A stretch of 62,709 bases of DNA from a virus, in IMG/VR virus record IMGVR_UViG_3300010412_000012, positions 1 through 62,709 of that record; one strand, 5' to 3'. The notes under the pieces were generated by a model. It had not been told where the DNA came from. It searched no databases and saw only the letters and a program-made list of their open reading frames with translations. The position numbers and the translations under genes were made by a program. This document shows positions 20,031 through 41,374 of this stretch, one piece after another (the first letter of the stretch is position 1; the number at the start of each line of letters is the position of its first letter).

Positions 20031-20101
20031 CCTAGCAACCATATTAGAAGCAGGAAGAACACGAGCACAATTAGTGTTGTCCATCTGCGTAGGAAGTTCA
20101 T
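20027..20101 (-). CDS. 24-residue membrane micropeptide
   Basis: ATG 20101 overlaps the previous stop as ATGA, and its TAG lies directly before the polymerase ATG (TAGGATG). The peptide is MNFLRRW followed by one hydrophobic helix (LIVLVFFLLLIWLLG), a typical one-pass membrane peptide. It may be a real micropeptide or a leader coupling translation to the polymerase. Too short for homology arguments; the overlaps on both sides are the main support. Confidence 0.4.
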   Translation of the reverse strand: MNFLRRWTTLIVLVFFLLLIWLLG

Positions 20102-20739
20102 TTGAGGTATTTGTCTATCAGCTGTTGGTAGAGTGAGGGTTTCGGGGGTGGCGCAGCGGGTGTACCTTGGATGCTGGAAGTACTTGCTGATGATAACGCC
20201 TGCCCCTGAGCCGCCGCTGCCGCCTGACCAGTGAACGTGATGGTCGGGCTTGTCACACCTGTGTGAGTCGGGTACGTGACAGTCCCGGTGTTGGTAATCC
20301 ACTGTGGAGTGTTCATCAGCTGGTTGTATTGACTGTGCTGGTACTTCTTCATCAGTTCTTCCAGCTGTTCACGGTGTATCTCGGCAGCTGACTTGGGTGC
20401 TTCTGGTCGTGGTGTTACCAAGTCGAAGTCACAGTCAGGGTTCTGGCATTGGAGAGACACCCACTCGCCGGGCTTGTTCTCCAACCCGTTGTCGGTTTCT
20501 TCGATCCACAACTGGTGTACCAAGAGCAAACCTTTCTTCTCGTCCTTGGTGAGACACTGGCGGCAGAAGATGGTCTGGTGCTGACGCTCGTAACGTGCCA
20601 GCGAGTTTAGATCACGTGCTCTGAAAGGGGTGAGGTAATGCGAGCGAAAGGCATCAGGATTGAATACGCCTTCCTGCATTTCGGGGTGGACTTTGGCAAC
20701 AAGTTCGATGACCTCTTGCCGAACTTCATCAAGTTCCAT
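20098..20739 (-). CDS. Zinc-binding protein with disordered tail, upstream of polymerase
   Basis: 213 aa, ATG 20739. The N-terminal half has CRQC (about 59-62) and CQNPDC (about 98-103), a four-cysteine zinc site. The C-terminal half is rich in Thr, Ala, Ser, Gln and Pro and ends YQQLIDKYLK, probably disordered with a docking end. First gene after a strong terminator and a sigma-70-like promoter, so it opens the replication sub-operon. A palindrome (20253-20266) lies inside its tail region. Function unknown. Confidence 0.65.
   Translation of the reverse strand: MELDEVRQEVIELVAKVHPEMQEGVFNPDAFRSHYLTPFRARDLNSLARYERQHQTIFCRQCLTKDEKKGLLLVHQLWIEETDNGLENKPGEWVSLQCQNPDCDFDLVTPRPEAPKSAAEIHREQLEELMKKYQHSQYNQLMNTPQWITNTGTVTYPTHTGVTSPTITFTGQAAAAAQGQALSSASTSSIQGTPAAPPPKPSLYQQLIDKYLK
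20253..20266. promoter_or_regulatory. Palindrome copy 1 of the TCACACA/TGTGTGA family
   Basis: TCACACCTGTGTGA; arms meet directly, one mismatch at the centre. It lies inside the coding region of the zinc-binding protein gene, so codon choice alone does not explain it. Confidence 0.6.
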
Positions 20740-20771
20740 TTCATCGCCTTAATTAGTTTGGTAGATGACCG

Positions 20772-20800
20772 AAACTATCAGATGACAAGTTGCTCGTCAA
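20772..20800 (-). promoter_or_regulatory. Sigma-70-like promoter for the replication genes
   Basis: Read leftward: TTGACG (20800-20795), 17-bp spacer, TAGTTT (20777-20772). It lies directly after the intrinsic terminator and about 33 bp upstream of the start codon of 20098-20739. The -35 is near consensus and the -10 moderate. Confidence 0.55.
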
Positions 20801-20803
20801 GAC

Positions 20804-20834
20804 AAAAAAAGGGGCCAGCCCGAAGGCCAGCCCC
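20804..20834 (-). terminator. Intrinsic terminator with UUCG loop
   Basis: On the leftward transcript GGGGCTGGCC pairs with GGCTGGCCCC (two G-U pairs) around a TTCG tetraloop, followed at once by TTTTTTT. A strong rho-independent terminator closing the 20856-30602 operon just before a new promoter. Confidence 0.85.
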
Positions 20835-20837
20835 ATG

Positions 20838-20852
20838 TCACACAGTGTGTGA
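20838..20852. promoter_or_regulatory. Palindrome copy 2
   Basis: TCACACAGTGTGTGA, perfect arms around a single base. It sits between the stop codon of 20856-21575 and the terminator hairpin, in untranslated DNA. Confidence 0.65.
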
Positions 20853-20855
20853 GTT

Positions 20856-21575
20856 TTAATGATCGGGATACAGTCTGTCGTTCTCCAAGTTGTCCATGAC
20901 TGCAATAGTTAAAAGGACTTGGTTGATTTCTTCCATGTCAGGCAGATGCTTAAACTGCTCTAAGGTTTCCTCACTCCAACCAGTAGGCATTGCAGAGCGT
21001 AACTTCTGTGCCGCCATTCGGTCGGTGTATTTCTTTTCAACCAAGGACGCGAACTCGGGCCACGCACGATACAACTGACCGGGAGTGTTCACTGAGTTGA
21101 TGGTCAGGTATTCCCCATCAGCCTTCTTGAGTCTCCCGCTACCCCACACTAACGCATGTGCGTAGCTGTCGAACCGAGACTGCCAAGCGCAAAGCTGACG
21201 GTCTCTGACAACCCACGCGAGTAACTTTGTGCGTAGTTCAGGGTCGGTGATCTGCGTGTCCTCAATCTCCACTTCGGGGTACGGGAAAGAATCGTACCGT
21301 GATCCGAAGTGAAGTTTGATTCTCGGGTTCCTCGGCAAGTACTCACGCTTCTCTGATAGCGACGGACACTTGATGGACATGCTGTTGCAATGGTTGAGCG
21401 CCTTCCTTGGCGCAATCAACTCCATTGCCTCACGTTCCTCACGTGACCATGCAAACCAGTAGTAGTCCTTGGGGTCAAGAGTGTTCGCGTGCATCGTGTG
21501 ACGATACCTTGTGAACATCTGTCGCCCTTTGTTCAGCATGAACGACCTGCCGGATTGTGACAGCCGGTTACTCAT
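20856..21575 (-). CDS. Unknown protein linked to the VWA/MoxR module
   Basis: 239 aa. The ATG overlaps the end of the VWA gene by 8 bp. Basic first 30 residues, aromatic- and charge-rich body, no membrane segment and no recognised catalytic motif. It is the last gene before the UUCG terminator, so it closes the MoxR/VWA sub-cluster and may encode a substrate or partner of that module. Function unknown. Confidence 0.65.
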   Translation of the reverse strand: MSNRLSQSGRSFMLNKGRQMFTRYRHTMHANTLDPKDYYWFAWSREEREAMELIAPRKALNHCNSMSIKCPSLSEKREYLPRNPRIKLHFGSRYDSFPYPEVEIEDTQITDPELRTKLLAWVVRDRQLCAWQSRFDSYAHALVWGSGRLKKADGEYLTINSVNTPGQLYRAWPEFASLVEKKYTDRMAAQKLRSAMPTGWSEETLEQFKHLPDMEEINQVLLTIAVMDNLENDRLYPDH

Positions 21576-22758
21576 CGTCCAGTTCTACGAAGATGGTCTC
21601 ACCAATAGGTGACTCCATCCCCTCACTGGTCGAACACCAGATGGTGTGATAGCCGGGGTCTTCGGGGAAGTCGCCATACATGTCTGTGAAGTAAACCACA
21701 CAGTCAGGACGAATCCCCTGTTCCTCAATCCACTCGAAAGGCGGCACAAAACTCGTCCCTCCTCCCCCGCCTAACGGTGGCGGGTTGTCCTTGAGTGAAT
21801 CACCGGCATACAACTCGTGAACCGAATTGATACGAGCATCGCAGCCTATCAGGGTTACGGCTTTCGGGGTGCAGTCGAGCAAGATGTTGTCGCACTCTCC
21901 GAGACCCTGTGCCATTTCCTTCTGCGACATAGAGCCTGAAGTGTCCACGACGAACACGATGTGACCAGCAGCGAAGCCGGTGTAGCTAGGCATGACGACG
22001 CCTTGTGATAACAACCGACGACGATGGGGTCGAGTCCACGTAGTAGCCTCTCGCCCTGCCACCTTCTGCATAGACTTACGCAACTTCTCAGTCCATGCGA
22101 CCTTCGGTTCAAGTACCTCATCCACGAACCGTTGCAGGTCAGCAGGTAACTTACCCTGCGCCTTGGCAGCATCAGCAGCACTTGCAATCACACGTTTCAT
22201 TTCGGCCTCGGTCACTTGAGCACTAGCGGGGATATGCTCGTCAAGCGTACCACCTGTGCCATGCCCCGGCCCATCCCCATCATCGGGATCGTCACGTAGC
22301 TTGCGGTAAACATCGTCTGCCATATCCTGCGAAGTGAACCGGGACGGATCATGCAGGACATTGGAAGGCATCTTGCCGATGTTACAGTTGTGCAGCATAT
22401 CGTTGATGATGTAGTCACCGGCTCGGTTCCATCTACCGTGGTCAAACGGTTCACCGTCGAAGCCCGTGTCCTGATACTGCTTGGCACGAGGCATGTGCAT
22501 CCAGATCGCATGACCAATCTCGTGACACATGACGAAGACACGTTCGGGTAGCGTCAGCTTCTCAAAGAAGTCAACGTCGAACCAGATGTTCTTCCCATCG
22601 GTTGCTGCGGTTTCGTTTCCCTTCATGTGCGGGGGAAACACATTGTCGAACTTGCCGACCTTGATACGCATGTGGTCAAGCATGATCGACGCGAAGAACG
22701 GTACATGCAAAAGCATCGCCGTTTTGACTTCCGTCAGTTTCGTGTTTTCTTCACTCAC
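21568..22758 (-). CDS. Metallopeptidase-like plus VWA domain protein (DUF2201/COG3864 type)
   Basis: 396 aa, GTG start at 22758 with AAGGAG upstream. The N-terminal domain has HEIGH at 79-83, a zinc-binding HExxH within VFVMCHEIGHAIWMH. A Gly/Asp-rich linker (158-171) follows. The C-terminal domain is a von Willebrand A fold with MIDAS motif DTSGS at 272-276 and a later TD in YFTDMYGD. Such proteins pair with MoxR AAA ATPases to remodel or assemble protein complexes. A MoxR gene is two genes upstream, so a phage-borne MoxR-VWA chaperone system is likely; its target is unknown. Confidence 0.85.
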   Translation of the reverse strand: MSEENTKLTEVKTAMLLHVPFFASIMLDHMRIKVGKFDNVFPPHMKGNETAATDGKNIWFDVDFFEKLTLPERVFVMCHEIGHAIWMHMPRAKQYQDTGFDGEPFDHGRWNRAGDYIINDMLHNCNIGKMPSNVLHDPSRFTSQDMADDVYRKLRDDPDDGDGPGHGTGGTLDEHIPASAQVTEAEMKRVIASAADAAKAQGKLPADLQRFVDEVLEPKVAWTEKLRKSMQKVAGREATTWTRPHRRRLLSQGVVMPSYTGFAAGHIVFVVDTSGSMSQKEMAQGLGECDNILLDCTPKAVTLIGCDARINSVHELYAGDSLKDNPPPLGGGGGTSFVPPFEWIEEQGIRPDCVVYFTDMYGDFPEDPGYHTIWCSTSEGMESPIGETIFVELDDE

Positions 22759-23344
22759 GATGATATTTCTCCTTCATTGAGTCGTATGGAACACGGACTA
22801 CGGCATTGTCCGGTAGCAGTTTATCTGCTAGACGGGCGCGAGCCTTAGCCCACGGTTCCATGTGTTCGTCAATCACCTGTCGTAATTCTGTCAGGTGTGA
22901 CTTCATCGGGTTCCAACGGGAATCGACTGCGATACGCACTACGTTCGCACCATAGGTACTCAGGTCACGTGCGTTGAACTTCTCAGTCATTACCAGCTGG
23001 GCTTCCATGTGCTTCATCAGTTCATCCCGAGCGTTCTCGTCAGGTGTCCAGATTGAACCACGTGTCTTGCCCAGATAGCCCAGCTGAAAATCCACGGTAC
23101 GCAGGATGAGTTGCAGACAGGTGTACCATCGTGAGGACTTGGAGAGCGTGTAGCCTCGACGAATTGCTGTGTCGATAGCCTTACGTTCCTTGTCACTCAG
23201 GTCGCCCATCGTCAACTCGGAATACCCACGTAGCCTGATTGGAACTTCACTGTCACTGTACTTGCCAGAGGGCTGCCTCTTGTACGTGTTCACCCATCTG
23301 TTCCATGCAGGTGTCAGCGCTTCTATTCCATGACTAGGTTTCAT
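22751..23344 (-). CDS. Unknown protein within the MoxR/VWA cluster
   Basis: 197 aa from ATG 23344; an alternative start lies three codons upstream. Helical, basic and charge-rich, with RWYTCLQLILRTVDFQLGYLG as its most hydrophobic part. No recognised domain. It overlaps the genes on both sides by about 10 bp, which argues for a fixed role with the VWA and DUF3150-like proteins. Function unknown. Confidence 0.65.
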   Translation of the reverse strand: MKPSHGIEALTPAWNRWVNTYKRQPSGKYSDSEVPIRLRGYSELTMGDLSDKERKAIDTAIRRGYTLSKSSRWYTCLQLILRTVDFQLGYLGKTRGSIWTPDENARDELMKHMEAQLVMTEKFNARDLSTYGANVVRIAVDSRWNPMKSHLTELRQVIDEHMEPWAKARARLADKLLPDNAVVRVPYDSMKEKYHRE

Positions 23345-24593
23345 CAGTCGCAAACTCCTTCATCAGATCGAAGATCACTTCCGCGTCAGCCGCCATCTGC
23401 TTGCGAAGGGCATCGTCTTTCCTAATGTCCTTCACATCGTACATAGTCAGCTTGCGCTCGACCCGGTCGCGTATGTCTTCGATCCGACCATCCTTGGTTA
23501 CATTCAGGTGTTTCAACATCGACGCCTGATCCTTCAGCTTCTCAATCATGGTGTAATGAAAGAGGGCGTCGGGGTTCGAGAGACGCTCGTAGGCGTGCTG
23601 CACAGTTTCGTACAGCCGTTGCCAAGCATCCTGCATCGCGTTCTCGAGCATCGTGCGCGTCCGTTTGTTGAGTGACTCTGCCAACTTCTGCGCTTGCTGT
23701 CCCTGAATACCATCGAAGTCCTGCCCCTTGGGGATAGGCTGGAAGTCGAAGTCCAGACCGAAGTGCTGTCGGATCACAGCAGCGTCAGGATAGTCAGCAG
23801 CGTTGTACGCGCTACCGAGTTTCCTTTGTGCTGCAACAAGATCGCTGCCGTACCCTTGAACGAACTCGTTGAGCGCCGCATCAGTCTCAGCCTTGGCGTT
23901 TGCCACCGCTGTCGTGTACTCCATGAACAGCGTATTAGGCAGCAGCCTCGGGCCTGCGCGCTTCCCGGTTTCGTTGATCCCAACTACCGACCAAGGCAAG
24001 GTCATTGCGTAGTGGGCAGTACGTGCAGCGTCAATGCACTTGTGAACCTTCTTGAGCCTTTCGTCAGCACCGGCAAGCAGGAACTTGTGAGTCTCGAAAG
24101 CAGCAGCGTCGGCACCAGCCGCAGTCGCCGCATCCTTACTCGCTTTACGATCCTTGATCTTACCGTGCCACCGAGCAGTCCGAAGTGTAACAAGTGTACC
24201 GAACTGACGAATGTCGATCTGATCCATAATGTCCTCATCCGTGAAGGTTGGAATGGGCACCGTATCGGCACCCGTTCCCTTTGAGAACATCTGTGTGGAA
24301 GGCTCTGGACTCACACACTGTGTGACATCCTCGACCTCCGGCTCAGGCTCGGGTTCGGGTTCCTCCACTTCCTCCCCCGCAGCACTAGCAATCAGTGCTT
24401 CAATGTCGTCAACAACTGGTTCGTTCACCAAGTCGTCGGCGGTGATAACGGCCTCGTCTTCCTCGGGTTCCGGGGTTGACACAGCCTCCAATGCCTCGTT
24501 GATTTGCTCGTCGGCAATCTCGTTAGGCGTTTGCTCCTCGTCTGCCAGCACGCTGTCCAGTAAGGAACTAATGTCGTCAAATGATGTTCCCAT
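23334..24593 (-). CDS. Acidic-tail helical protein of the MoxR/VWA cluster (DUF3150-like?)
   Basis: 419 aa, ATG 24593 with GAGG 8 nt upstream. The first 110 residues are acidic and Pro/Glu-rich (EEPEPEPEPEVED), probably disordered. The rest is helical with long amphipathic stretches. Its position directly after a MoxR ATPase and before a VWA protein resembles the arrangement of DUF3150 proteins in mobile elements, and the opening of the helical domain (DIRQFGTLVTLRTARW) is compatible, but the assignment is tentative. A palindrome (24311-24325) lies in the linker. Possibly the adaptor or cargo of the MoxR-VWA machine. Confidence 0.65.
   Translation of the reverse strand: MGTSFDDISSLLDSVLADEEQTPNEIADEQINEALEAVSTPEPEEDEAVITADDLVNEPVVDDIEALIASAAGEEVEEPEPEPEPEVEDVTQCVSPEPSTQMFSKGTGADTVPIPTFTDEDIMDQIDIRQFGTLVTLRTARWHGKIKDRKASKDAATAAGADAAAFETHKFLLAGADERLKKVHKCIDAARTAHYAMTLPWSVVGINETGKRAGPRLLPNTLFMEYTTAVANAKAETDAALNEFVQGYGSDLVAAQRKLGSAYNAADYPDAAVIRQHFGLDFDFQPIPKGQDFDGIQGQQAQKLAESLNKRTRTMLENAMQDAWQRLYETVQHAYERLSNPDALFHYTMIEKLKDQASMLKHLNVTKDGRIEDIRDRVERKLTMYDVKDIRKDDALRKQMAADAEVIFDLMKEFATDET
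24311..24325. promoter_or_regulatory. Palindrome copy 3
   Basis: TCACACACTGTGTGA, perfect 7-nt arms around one base. It lies in the coding region for the linker of gene 23334-24593. Confidence 0.6.
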
Positions 24594-24594
24594 C

Positions 24595-25674
24595 TTACAT
24601 ACCTCGCTTCGGGTCGATCAGGTTCGCCGCTACCAAAAGGTCTTGATTCTGGCGCAACCAACCGGCGAACTTCTTTGATTGCACAAGTGATGGGCCGGTC
24701 TTACGCATGGCCGCTTTGATTCCCGACACCTGAAACTCACGTGGCATACGCTTCAGGTAATCGAACGCAGGCTCAGCAGTATCTCCGTCCACACGATGAG
24801 CAATCATCTGCGTGGCAGCATACTGTGCGTCAGGCCGATCTTTGTCAGGCAGTTTGCACTTCATCGGATTGTTCACAATGTCCATGAAGTCAGGCAGCTG
24901 CTCCACTACCCGCATGAACGATACGAACTGTGCCGTAGTACCTTCACCGATTGCACCCGCGCAGAGTTCGATGAACTGGGACTCATCGAAGTAGTCTCCA
25001 ATCAGGTGTGACACCTTGCAGAACGAGCGTGGCGTGCAGAACGGCCCCGGCTTCTCAGGCACCTTGTCCTGAAAGATCAGTCCCGGCTGGCTCTTGGCGA
25101 ACGCAATCGCAGCCCAATGGATGTTGCCCTCTTGCTCCGCCCATTCGACCCACGAGTCCAAGTGCGGCTCGACCTTGAGTTCGATACGCCTGTTCTCAAT
25201 GAACGCCAGTGAGCGTTGGACACCAGACCGATCCGATTCCCGGTTCGATGCAGCTACCACCATGTACTCAATCGGTAGCTTCGAGTCACCGACCTGTCCT
25301 GCGTTGAGCAGTTCGGCAGATGGTTTCTGTACATCGTGACCAGACTGACGGTACTCATCCAAGAAGATGAATCCCGCCGCAGCATCACCCTCCCTTGGCA
25401 TCCACGGTGCCTTGGTGAACCACATTTCACGTGCTTCAAGGTCAGGACACCCATAGCCTCTTACGTCAGGTGCTTCAACGGTAGACAGGAAGAACTTCTT
25501 AACTGTGAAGTCGTCCAGACTCCATTGCTTCTGGATCATGCGTCCTGCTTGCTCGACGCACATGGACTTGCCAAGGCCCGGCCCGGATACCAACTCGACA
25601 GAGAACCTTTCACCTGTCTCAACTTGACGCTTCCACAGTTGGCTCAGCGTCGGGATTACTTGATTCAAAAACAT
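24595..25674 (-). CDS. MoxR-type AAA+ ATPase
   Basis: 359 aa, ATG 25674 with AGAGG 8 nt upstream. Walker A GPGLGKS at 31-37 and Walker B FIFLDE at 102-107. VVAASNRESD provides the sensor-1 asparagine. The compact N terminus, with no extra domain, is typical of MoxR/RavA-like ATPases. Together with the VWA protein it should form an ATP-driven chaperone or metal-insertion complex. In a phage this might remodel replication complexes or a host target; no evidence picks one. Confidence 0.85.
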   Translation of the reverse strand: MFLNQVIPTLSQLWKRQVETGERFSVELVSGPGLGKSMCVEQAGRMIQKQWSLDDFTVKKFFLSTVEAPDVRGYGCPDLEAREMWFTKAPWMPREGDAAAGFIFLDEYRQSGHDVQKPSAELLNAGQVGDSKLPIEYMVVAASNRESDRSGVQRSLAFIENRRIELKVEPHLDSWVEWAEQEGNIHWAAIAFAKSQPGLIFQDKVPEKPGPFCTPRSFCKVSHLIGDYFDESQFIELCAGAIGEGTTAQFVSFMRVVEQLPDFMDIVNNPMKCKLPDKDRPDAQYAATQMIAHRVDGDTAEPAFDYLKRMPREFQVSGIKAAMRKTGPSLVQSKKFAGWLRQNQDLLVAANLIDPKRGM

Positions 25675-25677
25675 GAT

Positions 25678-26190
25678 TCATACCTCTATGTGTCGTACTT
25701 GAAAGAAAGGCACGCCCGAAGTACGTGCTATGATGTTAGCCATTGGTGTTGCCGTAAGTGTTGGCCGGTCACTGTACGGTAGTGCATAAATCATTCCGGT
25801 GAATTCGCGCACCATACGAATCCACGCAGCTGTCGTGAGACACTCATCGTCCGTGTCATACCGATCACGTAAGACGATACAGATTTGCTCCTCGTCACTC
25901 GTCTTGTAACAGAATGGTAGATAGCCTTCGGGGTGACTGGCCTCGGCTTTCAGTTTGTTCCACTCTGGTAGGGTGCAGGGGTCAGCAAAGCAGAACTCCT
26001 GCGCTTCGTGTTGCTCTCGGGTCATGTCAGGAAACAAAAGCATCGTGTTCTCCATCATGTGTTTGAGACCATCGAGTTGCCAGTAGACATCACGCAGAAT
26101 GTTCTCCATGGCTTTCTTGGAATAGTGGCTCCAATTTTTGCCAATCCTGCTCTGCATTCTGTGTACCTTGTCGATGTAGTCAGGGAACAC
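25678..26190 (-). CDS. Unknown accessory protein
   Basis: 170 aa, GTG start at 26190 overlapping the upstream gene's end. Helical N terminus, then an acidic Cys-containing middle (FCFADPC, PFCYKTSDEEQICIV). No family recognised. It lies three bases upstream of the MoxR gene and is probably co-translated with it. Confidence 0.55.
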   Translation of the reverse strand: MFPDYIDKVHRMQSRIGKNWSHYSKKAMENILRDVYWQLDGLKHMMENTMLLFPDMTREQHEAQEFCFADPCTLPEWNKLKAEASHPEGYLPFCYKTSDEEQICIVLRDRYDTDDECLTTAAWIRMVREFTGMIYALPYSDRPTLTATPMANIIARTSGVPFFQVRHIEV

Positions 26191-26332
26191 GGCGTTTTAT
26201 TTCAGCGAGTACGTCACGCATTGATTCATATTCAACCTTGCCCCAATGCTCGTTCTCGCCCCTCTCACACATTTCCAGATCACCGTCTAGCAACTCAAAC
26301 AGTTCCTCTGTTGGTAACTTGCTAAGAGACAC
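26180..26332 (-). CDS. Small acidic protein (50 aa)
   Basis: GTG 26332 is preceded by GGGAGG; the open frame continues upstream to 26383 without a better start. The product has LSKLPTEELFELLDGDLEMC and a basic end (AEIKRRVP). It overlaps both neighbours by about 11 bp. No domain recognised; the overlaps and ribosome-binding site support a real gene. Confidence 0.5.
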   Translation of the reverse strand: MSLSKLPTEELFELLDGDLEMCERGENEHWGKVEYESMRDVLAEIKRRVP

Positions 26333-26546
26333 GATGTGGTTTCCTCCCTTTGCTGCTACGTCCCGATGCGCCACGCTTCTCATGCTTGCGGCGTGCGGGG
26401 GCGCTGATAACGGCTTGCCTCTTTGCCAGTTCAGCCCTACGCATCTTACGGTTAGGCGCGACGGGCAAGTGTGCCTCGCTCATCGCATGTGACGACCCCA
26501 AGAAGAAGTCGGTGAATGTCTTTACTGCGCTACGGAATCGAGCCAT
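26322..26546 (-). CDS. Small very basic protein with PNRKMRRA motif
   Basis: 74 aa from ATG 26546, overlapping the previous stop (TAATG) with GGGAG upstream. It contains PNRKMRRAELAKRQ, a short motif found in many phage and bacterial small proteins of unknown role, and ends in a Lys/Arg/Ser-rich tail. Probably binds nucleic acid or a host complex (inference). Confidence 0.6.
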   Translation of the reverse strand: MARFRSAVKTFTDFFLGSSHAMSEAHLPVAPNRKMRRAELAKRQAVISAPARRKHEKRGASGRSSKGRKPHRVS

Positions 26547-26905
26547 TAGTAAATCTCCCTTGCATCTGTTACACAGTCCCACCTGTCCCCGCCGATACGA
26601 CGTTCGACAACTGCGACACCTTCCTCACACATGTGTGAGTCCTCATCCTGATTCAGCGGGTAGCGATCAAAGTTGTCGCTACTGTCACACCACAGAATCC
26701 CACGCTTGTCGCGTGCCTTCCAATACCCATCAGCACACTGATAGGCAGCTATCCTCTCCGGGTTTCCATCACTGTGTGCAGTAATGGTGGGTACCTTGTA
26801 CCTCTCTGCCGTAATCGAACAGCCTTGCAGCATGGCAGTTACCGCGAGACCGATAATCATAAAGATCAGGAACAGGAGTTCCGCTACCTTGTCATTCCGT
26901 TTCAT
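26546..26905 (-). CDS. Putative lipoprotein, Cys-rich
   Basis: 119 aa from ATG 26905, with GGAGG 7 nt upstream. Basic start KRNDKVAE, hydrophobic LLFLIFMIIGLAVTAML, then lipobox MLQGC, so the mature protein would be lipid-anchored in the periplasm or outer membrane. Mature part has six further cysteines, possibly disulfide-bonded. Early-expressed phage lipoproteins often block superinfection; that role is an inference. A palindrome (26625-26638) lies within the gene. Confidence 0.65.
   Translation of the reverse strand: MKRNDKVAELLFLIFMIIGLAVTAMLQGCSITAERYKVPTITAHSDGNPERIAAYQCADGYWKARDKRGILWCDSSDNFDRYPLNQDEDSHMCEEGVAVVERRIGGDRWDCVTDAREIY
26625..26638. promoter_or_regulatory. Palindrome copy 4 (perfect)
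   Basis: TCACACATGTGTGA, perfect 14-bp palindrome inside the lipoprotein gene. Confidence 0.65.
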
Positions 26906-27128
26906 CTTCAACCTCCACATGCCTGATACAGTCCCATAGTTCACGTGTCTCGTCAGGCGCGAAACAGTGGGATATGTCGGGGCCATGTCGGTATGTCACA
27001 CTTGTGTGAGTCTCAGCCTTTGCCTCCTGCCAGAACAGAATCGCTCCGACCATGTAGGCAGCAGCCAGAGACACAAGCGCGATGATAACGAGCACGACTA
27101 TGAAGTCAGGTGATGGACGGTACCTCAT
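26892..27128 (-). CDS. Small membrane protein
   Basis: 78 aa with one strong transmembrane helix (FIVVLVIIALVSLAAAYMVGA, about residues 9-29), then a soluble tail containing two cysteines and an acidic end. It overlaps the downstream lipoprotein gene and the upstream coiled-coil gene (ATGA). Likely inner membrane; may work with the lipoprotein. Palindrome 26996-27009 is within it. Confidence 0.6.
   Translation of the reverse strand: MRYRPSPDFIVVLVIIALVSLAAAYMVGAILFWQEAKAETHTSVTYRHGPDISHCFAPDETRELWDCIRHVEVEDETE
26996..27009. promoter_or_regulatory. Palindrome copy 5
   Basis: TCACACTTGTGTGA, arms meet directly with one central mismatch; inside gene 26892-27128. Confidence 0.6.
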
Positions 27129-27307
27129 GCCGCACCTGCCTCGCGCAGTCGCTCAACCATACGGTCAACCTCCATGCGCTTGCCAATGTACTGTCTATAC
27201 AGGCGTTCGTATCTCTGACAAATGTCCTCGTAGTGACGGACGCGCACGAACCCGAGACGATACATCAACATATCGAACAGGCTCTCTCTAAACTCTCGCT
27301 TGCTCAT
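27125..27307 (-). CDS. Small helical / coiled-coil protein
   Basis: 60 aa, strongly helical and basic (VRHYEDICQRYERLYRQYI, MVERLREAG). ATG overlaps on both sides. No domain recognised. Probably part of the early accessory set. Confidence 0.55.
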   Translation of the reverse strand: MSKREFRESLFDMLMYRLGFVRVRHYEDICQRYERLYRQYIGKRMEVDRMVERLREAGAA

Positions 27308-27801
27308 CTTATCTTCACCTCCTCGCCAAGCAGGATTGCTTGACGTTCGTTAATACCCATCTTCTGTGGATAGAACCTAGCGACGAATGATGGGTAGTAG
27401 TCGTCGCTATAGTCTGTGCCGAATTCCAACACCGGCTTTGCTGTTGCAGTTGAGATCAGCTGTACTATTTCACACCTGTCCTCTTGGTAACGGTCGTCGA
27501 ACTGGTAGTCAATCAGTTCCGATTGCTTTTGTGCGTGGTGTCCTATTACCTCCTCTGCCGGTTGCCATACGTGCAACGGCATTTGATTTACCACAATGAT
27601 GTCCTCCATCATTGAACGGTAGCCATCGTTCGGGTCTTCCTGCACACGATAGATCACACCGTCCAACATGAAGTACATGTAGTCCACAGGCTGATCCTTC
27701 CATATCTTATCGGGTGGGTCTGCTTCCGCTTCGGTGAACCATACACCTGAAAGCAAACCCATCCGATTGTGGAAGTGTTCGAGCCTTAGTTGTCTTTCCA
27801 T
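27304..27801 (-). CDS. Unknown acidic accessory protein
   Basis: 165 aa, ATG 27801 with a G-rich site (GGGGGAA) upstream. Acidic, Tyr/Trp-rich, mixed alpha-beta. No known motif. It overlaps its upstream neighbour by 16 bp and its downstream one by 4 bp. Function unknown. Confidence 0.6.
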   Translation of the reverse strand: MERQLRLEHFHNRMGLLSGVWFTEAEADPPDKIWKDQPVDYMYFMLDGVIYRVQEDPNDGYRSMMEDIIVVNQMPLHVWQPAEEVIGHHAQKQSELIDYQFDDRYQEDRCEIVQLISTATAKPVLEFGTDYSDDYYPSFVARFYPQKMGINERQAILLGEEVKIR

Positions 27802-28127
27802 TTGATTTCCCCCACTTCGAGAGACGCATCCTTCGTTGCCTTGACGCTGAATGATGCTTGCCTGTGTCCCATGTCGCTGTCGATCTTCGACATGAGCGCG
27901 GCCATGAATGGATCGTCAGCCAATTCATTAACCGTGTTCACAATGCTAAGTACGTCCTGCATGAGATCGTACTGTTCTTGGGTGAGCAGGGGTTCACCGC
28001 AGTCGGGGCAGAGCGCCCCTATCCATGCTCCGTAGTCCTGCATGGCAATGTCTTGTTTCTCGTAGTCGCAGTTGGGATTGTCGCATACGAGTCCGTTTGC
28101 TTGTACTTGGATGGGTTTCTGTTCCAT
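27786..28127 (-). CDS. Zinc-ribbon protein
   Basis: 113 aa, ATG 28127 with AAGGA 6 nt upstream. CDNPNC (about 15-20) and CPDC (about 40-43) form a zinc ribbon, followed by an acidic helical region and a beta-like end. Possibly an early regulator or inhibitor binding host complexes, by analogy with other small phage zinc proteins; not proven. Confidence 0.6.
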   Translation of the reverse strand: MEQKPIQVQANGLVCDNPNCDYEKQDIAMQDYGAWIGALCPDCGEPLLTQEQYDLMQDVLSIVNTVNELADDPFMAALMSKIDSDMGHRQASFSVKATKDASLEVGEIKWKDN

Positions 28128-28210
28128 TGTAGTTCCTTAATTGATTGCAGTAATACTACCACAAGGGTAGGGTCTCGATCGAGCACTGTTTGTAGGAAGT
28201 CCCTTTCCAT
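28019..28210 (-). CDS. Doubtful small gene overlapping the zinc-ribbon gene
   Basis: 63 codons from ATG 28210, with AAGGAG about 10 nt upstream at the end of the previous gene. It fills the 90-bp gap before the zinc-ribbon gene, but then runs 109 nt into it in another frame. The first 30 residues (ERDFLQTVLDRDPTLVVVLL) look protein-like; the rest is Thr/Arg/Lys-rich and probably only a shadow. Kept as low confidence. Confidence 0.3.
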   Translation of the reverse strand: MERDFLQTVLDRDPTLVVVLLQSIKELQWNRNPSKYKQTDSYATIPTATTRNKTLPCRTTEHG

Positions 28211-28217
28211 ACACCTG

Positions 28218-28562
28218 TTACTCCTTGTCTATGTTCCTCTGGACGTCCGGCCACTGAAGCTGGTCGCACAGTTCACACATACCTTCCAATTCAATGAAGG
28301 TATCCTCGTCCACATCCCGGTGGCACTCAGTACAGCAGCACTTGGAGATATGGGGTTTCGGGGTCGCGTTGTACCGTGACGCTTCAGCGAACCTGTCCCA
28401 ATCGAACTTGTTGCTGTCGCGCCTGAAGTACCCCGCTATCTTGTTCGTGAGTATCGTCAGGATCAAGGCAGGGTCACGCTGTTGCTGTATGCCCTCAATG
28501 ATCTTCTGATCCTCACGCCGCAGGATCGAAGCTATCGCTTCATAGTCTTTCTTACTTGCCAT
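28218..28562 (-). CDS. Cys-rich small protein
   Basis: 114 aa from ATG 28562, with AAGGAGAG 6 nt upstream; the frame is open further upstream but has no better start. N-terminal helix, then CCCTECHRDVDED and MCELC, a likely zinc site. A palindrome (28574-28589) lies just upstream of the ribosome-binding site. Function unknown. Confidence 0.6.
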   Translation of the reverse strand: MASKKDYEAIASILRREDQKIIEGIQQQRDPALILTILTNKIAGYFRRDSNKFDWDRFAEASRYNATPKPHISKCCCTECHRDVDEDTFIELEGMCELCDQLQWPDVQRNIDKE

Positions 28563-28833
28563 GCTCTCTCCTTTCACACACGTGTGTGACTTGTTCGTTG
28601 TACCAAGACTCGTACCCCTCACAGAAGTGCGTGAGGAATGAGCCATGCTCTGCTATTGACCCGAACCTCTGAACCAAGAAACAAAGACACACTGTACGCC
28701 ACAGCACACGTGCCTCAATCGCGTCCAAGTCAACCTGTTCAGGGGTAGAGCCACGCCGCCGATGATAACGAGGAGTGGGCGCACCGATCATCAGCAGCGC
28801 GGCTCTATAGTCGTCGTGAGTGAAACGGCTCAC
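28552..28833 (-). CDS. Unknown small protein
   Basis: 93 aa, GTG start at 28833 overlapping the upstream stop (GTGA), with AAGG upstream. Contains RYHRRRGSTPEQVDLDAIEARVLWRT. No domain recognised. Its last codons carry palindrome copy 6 and the ribosome-binding site of the next gene. Confidence 0.55.
   Translation of the reverse strand: MSRFTHDDYRAALLMIGAPTPRYHRRRGSTPEQVDLDAIEARVLWRTVCLCFLVQRFGSIAEHGSFLTHFCEGYESWYNEQVTHVCERREHGK
28574..28589. promoter_or_regulatory. Palindrome copy 6 (perfect, 16 bp)
   Basis: TCACACACGTGTGTGA. It overlaps the end of one gene and ends only a few bases upstream of the AAGGAGAG site of the next, so a bound protein or an RNA hairpin could affect that start. Confidence 0.65.
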
Positions 28834-29165
28834 AGCAGCACGCCGCCTTTCTTCAGCTGCCGCATGAACAGTTGGTACGGTGCCGCATCGTCACCAGCTG
28901 TACGCAACGCACGCGAGACCACCGGCCACTCGTCGTGCCAGATCATCACCCACATTGGGAAACGCCTGTCACCAGTGAACTCACGGTGCAGGACTGACCT
29001 AAGTAACCGCTGGTCTGCCCACTTCATGTCGTCCTGCCTGCAAGCTGACCGCAGCGCCGATTCAATCTTGGCATGATTGCTCCTGCATAGCGCGATGCCT
29101 TTGGATGCCATAGGCACCTGCATACAGTCCCAATCACCTGCCAGTTCCGTCTTCATGTTTCTCAT
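28830..29165 (-). CDS. Unknown small basic protein
   Basis: 111 aa, ATG 29165 with GGAG 8 nt upstream and overlapping the previous TAA. Basic with Trp-rich RRFPMWVMIWHDEW and a basic end. No known domain. Early leftward block. Confidence 0.55.
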   Translation of the reverse strand: MRNMKTELAGDWDCMQVPMASKGIALCRSNHAKIESALRSACRQDDMKWADQRLLRSVLHREFTGDRRFPMWVMIWHDEWPVVSRALRTAGDDAAPYQLFMRQLKKGGVLL

Positions 29166-29476
29166 TATTCACACTCCAAACACGTGAACAGAACAGCATC
29201 ACGCCCTTCCAACTCAGGCACGATCCAAACATAGTGTGCCTCGACAGGCGTACCATCCTGACACCAGCACATCTCACATTCCGGGGTGCCGACCATCAGT
29301 TCGCCGAACATCTCAAAGTCACAACCGAATGTGGCGATCAGATCATCCATCGTGTATGCAACACGTGGCTCAAATGTACCGATACCTTCCATCGCACAGC
29401 TTGCGCGTGGCCCATCTTCCAGTACGTCGCGCTCCATGTTCTGAAGCATAATGTCTAGTTGTTTCATGTTACCCAT
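29165..29476 (-). CDS. Cys-rich acidic protein, first gene after the non-coding region
   Basis: 103 aa from ATG 29476, with GAGGAG 6 nt upstream; a GTG at 29497 is an alternative. Acidic, with CEMCWC and CLECE, so a zinc or disulfide site is possible. It is the first gene leftward of the 29.5-30.1 kb non-coding stretch and has a palindrome (29494-29508) in its leader. Function unknown. Confidence 0.6.
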   Translation of the reverse strand: MGNMKQLDIMLQNMERDVLEDGPRASCAMEGIGTFEPRVAYTMDDLIATFGCDFEMFGELMVGTPECEMCWCQDGTPVEAHYVWIVPELEGRDAVLFTCLECE

Positions 29477-29493
29477 GTCTATCTCCTCGTCAT

Positions 29494-29508
29494 TCACACA
29501 GTGTGTGA
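29494..29508. promoter_or_regulatory. Palindrome copy 7
   Basis: TCACACAGTGTGTGA in the leader of gene 29165-29476, about 18 bp upstream of its ATG. Confidence 0.65.
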
Positions 29509-29560
29509 GTTGTTATGTTTGTAACAGATGTATTTGAAAACATCTGTGTCAAACGTAAAT

Positions 29561-29860
29561 CCATTAAGTCCATCATCGCGTCCTCATTAAGTCCAAGTTA
29601 TTTTCTCACTTGGTCACGCGAGTGTCCAGTGTAATCAGTCGCTTATCCATTAGGTATAATTAGTCCACGATTTTCAGAGAACAAACATATATAGAATTAG
29701 AGGGTGAAGGGGTTTTGGTCGCCCCGTTACCCCGGCTGTTGCTCTCGCTATGGGGGGTTGTCCTCCGAAATCTATGGACTAATTATACTTAATAGATAAG
29801 TTATTGTATTGTATAGGCGACACACACACCTATCGCGTCCATCGCGTCCATTAAGTCCAA
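29561..29860. repeat. Iteron-like ATTAAGTCCA repeats
   Basis: Copies at 29561-29572, 29585-29596 and 29848-29860, the last two preceded by GCGTCC. Variants with an inserted TATAATTAG occur in both arms of the inverted repeat. All are in the same orientation on the plus strand except the inverted-repeat arm. Confidence 0.5.
29642..29800. repeat. Inverted repeat with two convergent TATAAT boxes
   Basis: Arms 29642-29675 and 29767-29800; the first 26 positions match at 24 when one arm is reversed. Each arm contains TATAAT (29655-29660 on plus, 29787-29782 on minus), pointing toward each other. No good -35 box is visible at either. The leftward box could serve gene 29165-29476. Confidence 0.6.
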
Positions 29861-29944
29861 ACTCGCTGCCGAAAGTCACGGCTGATGATAACGCCCGCAC
29901 CCCTGAACCCCTAGGTTTGAAAACATCTGTTATTGAAACGTATG

Positions 29945-29960
29945 TCACACACCTGTGTGA
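29945..29960. promoter_or_regulatory. Palindrome copy 8
   Basis: TCACACACCTGTGTGA, perfect arms around two bases, in the non-coding region between the terminator and the inverted repeat. Confidence 0.65.
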
Positions 29961-30001
29961 AAGGGTGTTAGGGTCACGTGTCCAAAACTGCTCACGCGGG
30001 C

Positions 30002-30030
30002 AAAAAAAGGGGCGGGCCGTAGCCCACCCC
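30002..30030 (-). terminator. Intrinsic terminator after the first leftward gene
   Basis: Leftward transcript: GGGGTGGGC, loop TACG, GCCCGCCCC (one G-U pair), then TTTTTTT. A strong rho-independent terminator directly downstream of gene 30066-30602. Confidence 0.8.
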
Positions 30031-30065
30031 CGCGCCGGTTCCCAAGCCCGGCTGTCCTCGATAGG

Positions 30066-30602
30066 TTACGAAAGCTCGTAACCGTGTTCGGCACAAACAG
30101 CTTGCAACGCCTGTATGAAAGCAGACTTGCTAGTGCTGTTGAGAATGTCCGTTGCGATCTTGTCGAGCGGATCGACCTGCGCGGCCTTGTTCTTCTTGAA
30201 GAATTCGGCTTTGATTTGTTTCACGCTCGGCGTACCCTTTTTCGACAGGCGCACGAAAATGCGCGCTACCTTGATTGCGTCATGCCATACGAAACGCTCG
30301 CAACGCTTGTCGGATTCGACCGCTTCACACAGCGTTTGCAATTCGTGATGCGACCGCAATACTGCGCGACACTCGGACATGCGGGAATCGCGGCTGCGAC
30401 CTTTCCAGCCCATTTCATCCGCAACGGCTGTCACGATTTCTTTAATGTCCGTAGCGGGTACGGCGGCGTCGTAATCTTCGCCGATGATTTCACACATGTG
30501 TGAAACGAGATTGGTCTGCGATGTTACCTTGCGATAGGTGTCTGCAAACCCCGAAACGATTTTGCTAAGTACGGACTTAGCCACCTTGTTTGTTTTACTC
30601 AC
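30066..30602 (-). CDS. First leftward gene, candidate regulator
   Basis: 178 aa from GTG 30602, with AGAGG 8 nt upstream; the frame is open to 30791 but that part is Pro-rich and shadow-like. Helical, Lys-rich, with KVAKSVLSKIVSGFADTYRK and SVKQIKAEFFKKNKAAQ. It is transcribed alone: promoter-like sequence upstream, strong terminator downstream. Palindromes lie both in its upstream region (30674) and within it (30490). This makes it the leading candidate for a protein that binds the palindrome family or controls early genes, but no DNA-binding fold could be named. Confidence 0.6.
   Translation of the reverse strand: MSKTNKVAKSVLSKIVSGFADTYRKVTSQTNLVSHMCEIIGEDYDAAVPATDIKEIVTAVADEMGWKGRSRDSRMSECRAVLRSHHELQTLCEAVESDKRCERFVWHDAIKVARIFVRLSKKGTPSVKQIKAEFFKKNKAAQVDPLDKIATDILNSTSKSAFIQALQAVCAEHGYELS
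30490..30503. promoter_or_regulatory. Palindrome copy 9 (perfect)
   Basis: TCACACATGTGTGA inside the candidate regulator gene. Confidence 0.65.
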
Positions 30603-30644
30603 GATGAATACCTCTTTCGTGGGGTGCGCCCTTCGCTCCCCTTC

Positions 30645-30650
30645 ACTATA
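30645..30650 (-). promoter_or_regulatory. Candidate leftward early promoter (-10 box)
   Basis: TATAGT read leftward, about 43 bp upstream of GTG 30602. No consensus -35 is present, but palindrome copy 10 starts 23 bp upstream, at about the -36 to -49 position, as expected for an operator. The same 9-mer TCACTATAC recurs at 34204-34212. Confidence 0.4.
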
Positions 30651-30673
30651 CAAGTGATTGGAAAGGACAGGAC

Positions 30674-30687
30674 TCACACATGTGTGA
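30674..30687. promoter_or_regulatory. Palindrome copy 10 (perfect), operator-like
   Basis: TCACACATGTGTGA in the divergent gap between leftward and rightward blocks, next to the candidate leftward promoter. The rest of the gap (30688-30846) is G-rich, then AT-rich with TATATA at about 30783; no clear rightward promoter could be fixed. Confidence 0.7.
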
Positions 30688-31786: not shown

Positions 31787-31903
31787 ATGTACAGTATTGC
31801 ATGTTTTGTAGTCGTCGCATTGATCGTTGCAAGTGGTGTTTACATCTACCACGACCAGATCGACGCGCTCGTGCAGAAAGTCAGGGCGCGGTTTAAGAAG
31901 TAA
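31787..31903 (+). CDS. 38-aa single-pass membrane protein
   Basis: Found in the gap after 31783: ATG 31787, GAGAGG 8 nt upstream, stop TAA 31901-31903 overlapping the next ATG. Hydrophobic CFVVVALIVASGVYIY, then a basic end (QKVRARFKK). Inner-membrane micropeptide of unknown role. Confidence 0.55.
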   Translation: MYSIACFVVVALIVASGVYIYHDQIDALVQKVRARFKK

Positions 31904-32085
31904 TGCCGCGTCGGAGCATGAACGGGGTCAGGGTTCACCTGATCGTGACCAAACCCCAGCATACCCGGTTGGACGCCCTCGCGCAGAAGACCGGGTTGCC
32001 CATGTCTGAGTTACTTAGGCGTGCGATTGACACTTATCTGGGACAAGATGGACAAGCAAAAACTGAAACAGCAAATCAAGGCTGA
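31903..32085 (+). CDS. Ribbon-helix-helix DNA-binding protein
   Basis: 60 aa. VRVHLIVTKPQHTRLDALAQ gives the ribbon strand and first helix, then TGLPMSELLRRAIDTYL the second helix, the classic CopG/Arc arrangement. Such proteins bind short palindromes as dimers of dimers. It precedes terminase and is a natural candidate for a late/early switch regulator, and another candidate binder of the TCACACA palindromes. TAATG overlap with the micropeptide gene. Confidence 0.75.
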   Translation: MPRRSMNGVRVHLIVTKPQHTRLDALAQKTGLPMSELLRRAIDTYLGQDGQAKTETANQG

Positions 32086-40781: not shown

Positions 40782-41374
40782 TGGCAGTCTCAGTGGATTG
40801 GATCACAGGAGTCATCACGGTACCCCGAGCCGATATGACCCTGATTCAAGCATCGCCAGAGGTGCGAGAGCTTGACACGACTGCGTTCTTCGACGAGCTG
40901 AAGGCTCTTGAGGCGTCGGCAGAGGGTATGCCTTGGCCGGACACCCAGCGCCACAACCTGAGTTATACCATTTCCGGTATAACCTACGCCGAGTCTCTCG
41001 AGATCATTCCGCCGTACACAGTGACGTTCGAGGACGCCCAGTACGCCGTATCTCTGAAGGGAACGAACAACAACATCATTGACCGGGCCAACACCAACCA
41101 AGTCCGTATTCTTGCCAACAACTCTGCTGGCCTGATCGACGTACCGATCACGCAGGCCGACAAAGATGCGATTGTGGCACAGGTGTTTGCACAGATCATG
41201 GAGGGGACGGAGACGTTCGCCCAACAGATCAAGCTCATCAGAGCCGAGGCTGCGGGTTCCATCACTGTGACTGGAACCGAGAACCGCATCAAGTCGGCAG
41301 ACGGCAACAAGGATCGCATTGTGGCGAATGCTGACGAAACCGGGCGAACTGTGACCTCCACGGACGGCACGTAA
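40781..41374 (+). CDS. Conserved phage structural protein
   Basis: 197 aa. VDWITGVITVPRADM, a helical stretch about 30-50, ISGITYAESLEIIPPYTVTFEDAQY and NNNIIDRANTNQVRILANNSAGL make a recognisable phage structural family of unknown precise place, often among head-tail genes. A short repeat-like end (TVTGTENRIKSADGNKDRIV) follows. TAATG overlaps on both sides. Confidence 0.65.
   Translation: MAVSVDWITGVITVPRADMTLIQASPEVRELDTTAFFDELKALEASAEGMPWPDTQRHNLSYTISGITYAESLEIIPPYTVTFEDAQYAVSLKGTNNNIIDRANTNQVRILANNSAGLIDVPITQADKDAIVAQVFAQIMEGTETFAQQIKLIRAEAAGSITVTGTENRIKSADGNKDRIVANADETGRTVTSTDGT

Follow-up and report, generated by a model that had tools for sequence, protein, structure and literature searches.

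The stretch of DNA analysed here (hereafter the window) is the 62,709-nucleotide IMG/VR record IMGVR_UViG_3300010412_000012. Its gene content was podovirus-like and included genes for a portal (phrog_332), a major head protein, an internal virion protein, a DNA transfer protein, and an endolysin. The leftward block encoded a primase-helicase, an SNF2-type helicase, VRR-NUC, a RecB-like exonuclease, and PolA, together with a DUF2201/VWA metallopeptidase-like protein and a MoxR-type ATPase. For the protein encoded at 21568-22758, the match to phrog_1314 ("HNH endonuclease") stood against a Pfam match to DUF2201 metallopeptidase-like/VWA, and the PHROG label looks wrong. The nearest cultured phages were Rhizobium phages of the RHph_TM3_14A type (terminase identity 44.5%), and the nucleotide sequence of the block matched none of the cultured phages searched. 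The block contained ten short palindromes and the features listed below in window coordinates, the sites and the non-coding region being given without strand.

20253-20266, site 1: TCACAC-CT-GTGTGA, inside ORF 20098-20739; the last site before the DNA polymerase
20811-20834, minus strand: intrinsic terminator that adjoins site 2 and lies upstream of the PolA operon; apart from the one after the DBP gene, the only strong terminator in the block
20838-20852, site 2: TCACAC-AGT-GTGTGA, with the intrinsic terminator 4 nt beyond it on the block strand
24311-24325, site 3: TCACAC-ACT-GTGTGA, within the part of ORF 23334-24593 that encodes the N terminus
26625-26638, site 4: TCACAC-AT-GTGTGA, inside ORF 26546-26986
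26996-27009, site 5: TCACAC-TT-GTGTGA, upstream of ORF 26546-26986
28574-28589, site 6: TCACAC-ACGT-GTGTGA, at the end of ORF 28552-28833, immediately preceding the ribosome-binding site of the gene that follows
29494-29508, site 7: TCACAC-AGT-GTGTGA, immediately before the ribosome-binding site of ORF 29165-29497
29498-30065: non-coding region that separates the DBP gene from the remainder of the block and contains site 8 and repeats
29945-29960, site 8: TCACAC-ACCT-GTGTGA, in non-coding DNA, past the terminator that lies downstream of the DBP gene
30008-30031, minus strand: strong intrinsic terminator after the DBP gene
30066-30602, minus strand: DBP gene, encoding a basic (pI 8.9), all-helical protein of 178 aa from no known family, the putative binder of the sites
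30490-30503, site 9: TCACAC-AT-GTGTGA, within the DBP coding region (encoding SHMCE), at a place also occupied in several relatives
30674-30687, site 10: TCACAC-AT-GTGTGA, in the DBP gene leader

All ten sites lay at the coordinates given by the first-pass annotation (20253, 20838, 24311, 26625, 26996, 28574, 29494, 29945, 30490, and 30674). That annotation had described them as arms of seven bases; eight sites fitted this motif, and those at 20253 and 26996 each deviated by one mismatch. The constant core shared by all ten was TCACAC-N(2-4)-GTGTGA, with 2, 3, or 4 bases between the arms and a total length of 14, 15, or 16 bp. Perfect self-complementarity was confirmed for four of the ten (26625, 28574, 30490, and 30674). 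The proposed confinement to the leftward block also held, with zero further copies of the core in the whole 62,709-base record, where the backward control pattern gave no match either. Chance occurrence was negligible, as had been assumed: 200 dinucleotide shuffles yielded 6 matches in total, or about 0.03 per genome. As previously assigned, five sites fell inside ORFs (20253, 24311, 26625, 28574, and 30490), one at a gene start or junction (29494), and four in leaders or non-coding DNA (20838, 26996, 29945, and 30674). A candidate promoter adjoining one of the sites was not recovered; where 8.4 promoter-like sites were expected in the block, a sigma-70 scan gave three, and no palindrome had one beside it. 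A 4197-base contig from another metagenome (IMGVR_UViG_3300009509_000631) encoded a MoxR-type ATPase 100% identical to that of the window and carried three TCACAC sites, and the window phage was therefore present in more than one sample.

The terminator at 30008-30031 suggests that the DBP gene is a separate transcription unit. The adjacent non-coding region (29498-30065) may be an early promoter or origin region. Within it, we observed a 43-nt inverted repeat (29642-29684 and 29758-29800; 81% complementary, 73 nt apart) and direct repeats of TTTGAAAACATCTGT (29533 and 29916) and CATTAAGTCCA (29562, 29585, and 29849); a TTTCAAA/AAAACATCTG element also occurred near sites in two relatives (G003 and G024). 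A replication role, in which DBP would be an initiator or replication-control protein and 29498-30065 the origin, could draw on this repeat-rich neighbourhood with its inverted repeat and on the presence of PolA and a primase-helicase in the block. The sites, however, occurred singly over 10 kb rather than clustered as iterons, and many were at ribosome-binding sites, at a terminator, or within genes, so that we consider this role quite improbable.

To place the sites in a wider context, we collected related contigs through the terminase (64) and the MoxR-type ATPase (61) and searched them de novo for repeated palindromes. Nearly every related podovirus-like contig that included the block had its own dispersed palindrome, such as TTACAACnGTTGTAA, TTAACAGnCTGTTAA, or TTGCTAGnCTAGCAA, usually in 5-10 near-perfect copies from the first early gene to the DNA polymerase. 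Examples, with copy numbers, are as follows.

G005: TTACAACnGTTGTAA, 10 copies
G004: TTGCACAnTGTGCAA, 7 copies
G022: TTAACAGnCTGTTAA, 8 copies
G017: TTACACCGGTGTAA, 7-8 copies
G019 and G025: TCACACAnTGTGTGA, 6-7 copies
G024: TTACACAnTGTGTAA, 9-10 copies
L173 and L174: TTGCTAG, 8-11 copies
L184 and L188: CCACACA, 8-9 copies

These sites were sharp, many genomes having 7-10 perfect copies and zero copies with one mismatch. Most relatives used one arm spacing, whereas that of the window phage varied between 2, 3, and 4 bp. In complete or long genomes with a DBP of the window type (family A), the sites extended from the leader of DBP up to a point just short of PolA, while PolA, the genes beyond it, and the structural genes were essentially site-free; because family-A sites avoid structural genes, the earlier suggestion that they serve a packaging protein is unlikely.

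Among genomes of fixed spacing, C or G occupied the centre of the 15-bp palindrome at 104 of 104 sites, with no strand bias (58 C and 46 G when read on the block strand). If duplex DNA is bound by a symmetric dimer, a central G-C pair that is required but has no preferred strand is to be expected, pointing to the sites being duplex DNA elements of this kind. The frequent location just before a ribosome-binding site or terminator could instead suggest RNA hairpins that hide ribosome-binding sites or aid termination. We regard such hairpins as highly improbable, since a perfect hairpin cannot close over the one base between the arms, the centre base lacks strand bias and is never A or T, and many sites lie mid-gene.

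The nearest relative (G003; IMGVR_UViG_3300009027_000001), with DNA about 80% identical over most of the block, contained no TCACAC...GTGTGA pair. At the counterparts of eight of the ten window positions it had ACACACA-S-TGTGTGT (ACACACAnTGTGTGT) instead: seven sites aligned directly (20838, 24311, 26996, 28574, 29945, 30490, and 30674), the counterpart of 29494 was displaced by roughly 45 nt, and those of 20253 and 26625 fell in diverged or missing DNA. Across the whole set, the main difference between the two phages was that G003 had A where the window had T as the outermost base of the half-site. Relatives that keep the genes and lack the sites had been named as evidence against dispersed operators; G003 keeps the positions with an altered motif. 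Separately, window positions 40834-40956 matched both ends of G003, indicating circular permutation or terminal redundancy of this genome, which is probably complete.

Placement relative to genes was also conserved across the clade. A Shine-Dalgarno sequence and start codon followed within 40 nt for 64 of 179 sites, compared with 22.6 expected. The site and terminator before PolA recurred in most relatives (G003, G005, G013, G019, G020, G022, G023, G030, L173, L174, L175, and L181). The counterpart of window ORF 23334-24593 contained a site within its first 370 nt in 11 of 13 genomes against 3.4 expected, showing that the location of intragenic sites is conserved. A conserved site immediately upstream of the MoxR gene was considered and dropped (2 of 13 genomes against 1.2 expected).

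Next, we considered which protein might bind the sites. Profile search detected DBP homologues in all relatives covering the region (32 distinct sequences). The family was visible only by profile: searches with the window DBP alone against viral contigs and with one homologue against cultured phages returned none, and the 15 distant loci found by scanning bacterial genomes with the terminase included none with DBP. Profile searches of the family against Pfam, PHROGs, and PDB sequences gave no significant match; DUF3232 (E 0.015) and weak PHROG matches were dropped as identities because they were below significance. An AlphaFold2 model of DBP was all-helical (pLDDT 88), a PDB fold search with it found no match, and neither sequence-profile nor fold searches revealed a recognisable helix-turn-helix. 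All full-length DBPs were basic (pI 8.8-10.3), and the one family member outside this range was a 51-residue fragment at a contig end. Sites flanked DBP genes almost everywhere, and most genomes had one in the DBP leader, coding sequence, or both, plus another just after the gene.

DBP was the most diverged of the 29 genes compared between the window and G003, at 33% identity, against 93% for the terminase, 95% for MoxR, 91% for PolA, and 73% for the ribbon-helix-helix (RHH) protein. Across 22 genomes, motif distance followed DBP distance (Mantel r 0.58, p 0.0005; partial Mantel 0.54 after correction for the terminase) more closely than it followed the terminase (0.36) or the RHH protein (0.21; partial 0.02). 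With half-sites assigned manually and partial Mantel tests liable to be anticonservative, more weight belongs to the difference between DBP and the RHH protein than to the p-value. The first-pass annotation had named both the 30066-30602 and the 31903-32085 proteins as candidates, and dispersed operators bound by the former appear from these comparisons to be the best-supported reading, their positions being kept while their sequence changes with DBP. Binding by the RHH protein (31903-32085), a ribbon-helix-helix repressor-type protein (RHH_3, E 2.9e-7) present in most relatives, seems scarcely credible, as its divergence does not track the motif after phylogeny correction and it is 73% identical in G003 although the sites have changed. 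A host regulator could be imagined from the similarity of the half-sites to common bacterial operator halves; phage-specific motifs that co-diverge with a phage protein, and the concerted change of sites between close relatives, leave this with a very small probability. We rejected as co-occurrence evidence the observation that contigs without DBP also lack palindromes, since those contigs lack the whole block, which makes the co-occurrence a weak test. KPP25 and Rollin, which have part of the block, had no such palindromes; they were the only negatives for the pairing of DBP with palindromes and also lack other block genes.

In RHph_TM3_14A (MN988472; L147/L148) and its metagenomic relatives, a simple profile search did not find family-A DBP. 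The RHph_TM3_14A genome nevertheless carried 55 copies of GTTACC-N(5-6)-GGTAAC with at most one mismatch, compared with 0-1 in shuffles. These were distributed over the whole genome, on both arms, about 1 kb apart and more evenly than expected by chance (P 0.002). Two further genomes had 41 TTACC-type pairs (G037) and 19 TAGTAC pairs (G041). At the DBP position of RHph_TM3_14A lies EVB41_028, which founds a second family (family B) of 13. Profile-profile comparison of families A and B gave 87% probability and E 3.7e-6 (for one comparison) over 158 columns and brought the conserved Ser-x-x-Arg and Ala-Arg motifs into register. Over the first 90 residues, predicted helices occupied nearly the same places in both families, and the two models had one and the same protein, A0A6J5KV99, as their best viral structure match (TM 0.54 and 0.68). 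These profiles and models suggest that the two families are probably distant homologues. RHph_TM3_14A thus resembles the window phage as a cultured phage with the same gene block, dispersed palindromes, and a probable distant DBP homologue, and differs in its genome-wide sites and in a longer protein recognisable only by profile and fold comparison.

Family-B sites covering the whole genome (55 in RHph_TM3_14A, evenly spaced, and 41 in G037), together with the many intragenic sites, would suit a DBP that binds mainly as a genome-organising, protective, or segregation protein, as in a phage nucleoid or partition system, and not chiefly as a transcription regulator. Family-A sites, in contrast, stay within a single transcription unit and are overrepresented at the leaders of ribosome-binding sites and before a terminator. 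ParA ATPases (PF13614) were absent from the 12 genomes searched (the window and relatives, as metagenome contigs that may be incomplete), and the window clade accordingly shows no ParA ATPase of the kind that marks ParABS partition. We judge an organising role of this sort to be rather unlikely.

Our preferred reading, which we consider likely, is that DBP is an autoregulated repressor or roadblock acting on palindromes along the early transcription unit. The ten palindromes would be binding sites of DBP, whose gene is the first of the leftward early block and probably its own short unit, and DBP would bind double-stranded DNA as a symmetric dimer. Sites in the DBP leader, in its coding sequence, and after its terminator imply that DBP should regulate itself. 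It would also occupy the leaders of ribosome-binding sites, fixed intragenic places, and the spot just ahead of the terminator that precedes the DNA polymerase gene. Bound in the regulatory region it would block initiation, and at internal sites it would obstruct RNA polymerase during elongation, so that early transcription is lowered or timed. Apparent from the DNA itself are the sites, their positions and conserved slots, their co-divergence with DBP, and their dyad symmetry without strand bias; we infer from these the binding, dimerisation, repression or roadblock, and timing by DBP. The placement of the sites within a single unit, where they lie at ribosome-binding-site leaders, within genes, and ahead of a terminator, and where the first gene would be autoregulated, fits a repressor with an additional block to elongation. 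Counting against this reading are the 2-4 bp spacing in the window, which is odd for a rigid dimer, and the lack of a helix-turn-helix or PDB structural relative for DBP and of a sigma-70 promoter beside the sites. The genome-wide family-B sites, evenly spaced in RHph_TM3_14A, are not predicted by a purely early-gene role.

Several known systems invite comparison. The stoperators of L5 and other cluster A mycobacteriophages are 13-14 bp, asymmetric, monomer-bound, and oriented with transcription, their repressor (gp71/Rep) comprises a helix-turn-helix and a Stoperator domain, the phages are temperate, and a block to elongation has been shown as their role (PMC9283540, PMC6550527). The present system shares with them many dispersed short sites, located between genes and at the gene of the binder itself; one phage-encoded protein of about 180 aa, here the predicted binder; and a motif that differs between phages and follows repressor distance (here Mantel 0.58, partial 0.54). 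It differs in that the window-type sites are palindromic and without orientation (58 C to 46 G at the centre base), that DBP is unrelated to the cluster A repressor, with no PDB profile or fold match, and that integrase and ParA were not found in the window clade, the metagenome contigs of which may be incomplete. Integrase domains (PF00589 and PF07508) were absent from 11 genomes and HTH_3 repressors of the lambda CI/Cro type (PF01381) from 12, in both cases comprising the window and its relatives and, for the integrases, metagenome contigs that may be incomplete. By analogy, the system may work like L5 stoperators, although the defining asymmetry, protein family, and temperate lifestyle were not found. 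As with immunity repressors and stoperators, DBP and all its sites would switch specificity jointly in every lineage of these phages. The T1-like phages Stevie and TLS carry about 16-21 asymmetric repeats of 22 bp that follow the direction of transcription and have no known function (PMC4319613, PMC11447400). The likeness lies in dispersed repeats, mostly intergenic and upstream of starts, in lytic phages, and the difference in asymmetric, oriented repeats with no proposed binder in another phage group. For a ribbon-helix-helix (Arc/CopG) operator system, co-divergence with the motif was not observed (partial Mantel 0.02). No description of the present system was found in the open-access literature searched.

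Good descriptions of dispersed repressor sites exist only for temperate actinobacterial phages. In the clade studied here, dozens of genomes pair sites with one candidate protein, co-evolution is directly readable, and there is no sign of lysogeny; judged from these sequences, DBP and its sites look like a fast-evolving gene-control system. More tentatively, and with slightly less than even confidence, we propose that families A and B form an undescribed all-helical phage DNA-binding superfamily with a new way of reading palindromes. In podoviruses that do not integrate, this superfamily would control transcription along early genes (A) or the whole genome (B), and in each lineage its specificity would switch together with that of all 5-55 sites, so that seemingly non-temperate phages would have immunity-like types. 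If true, this would add a DNA-binding protein fold and explain early-gene timing in virulent-looking phages. The system lets one ask why at least ten sites change specificity jointly, and RHph_TM3_14A, a cultured phage of the wider clade growing on Rhizobium etli, makes it testable.
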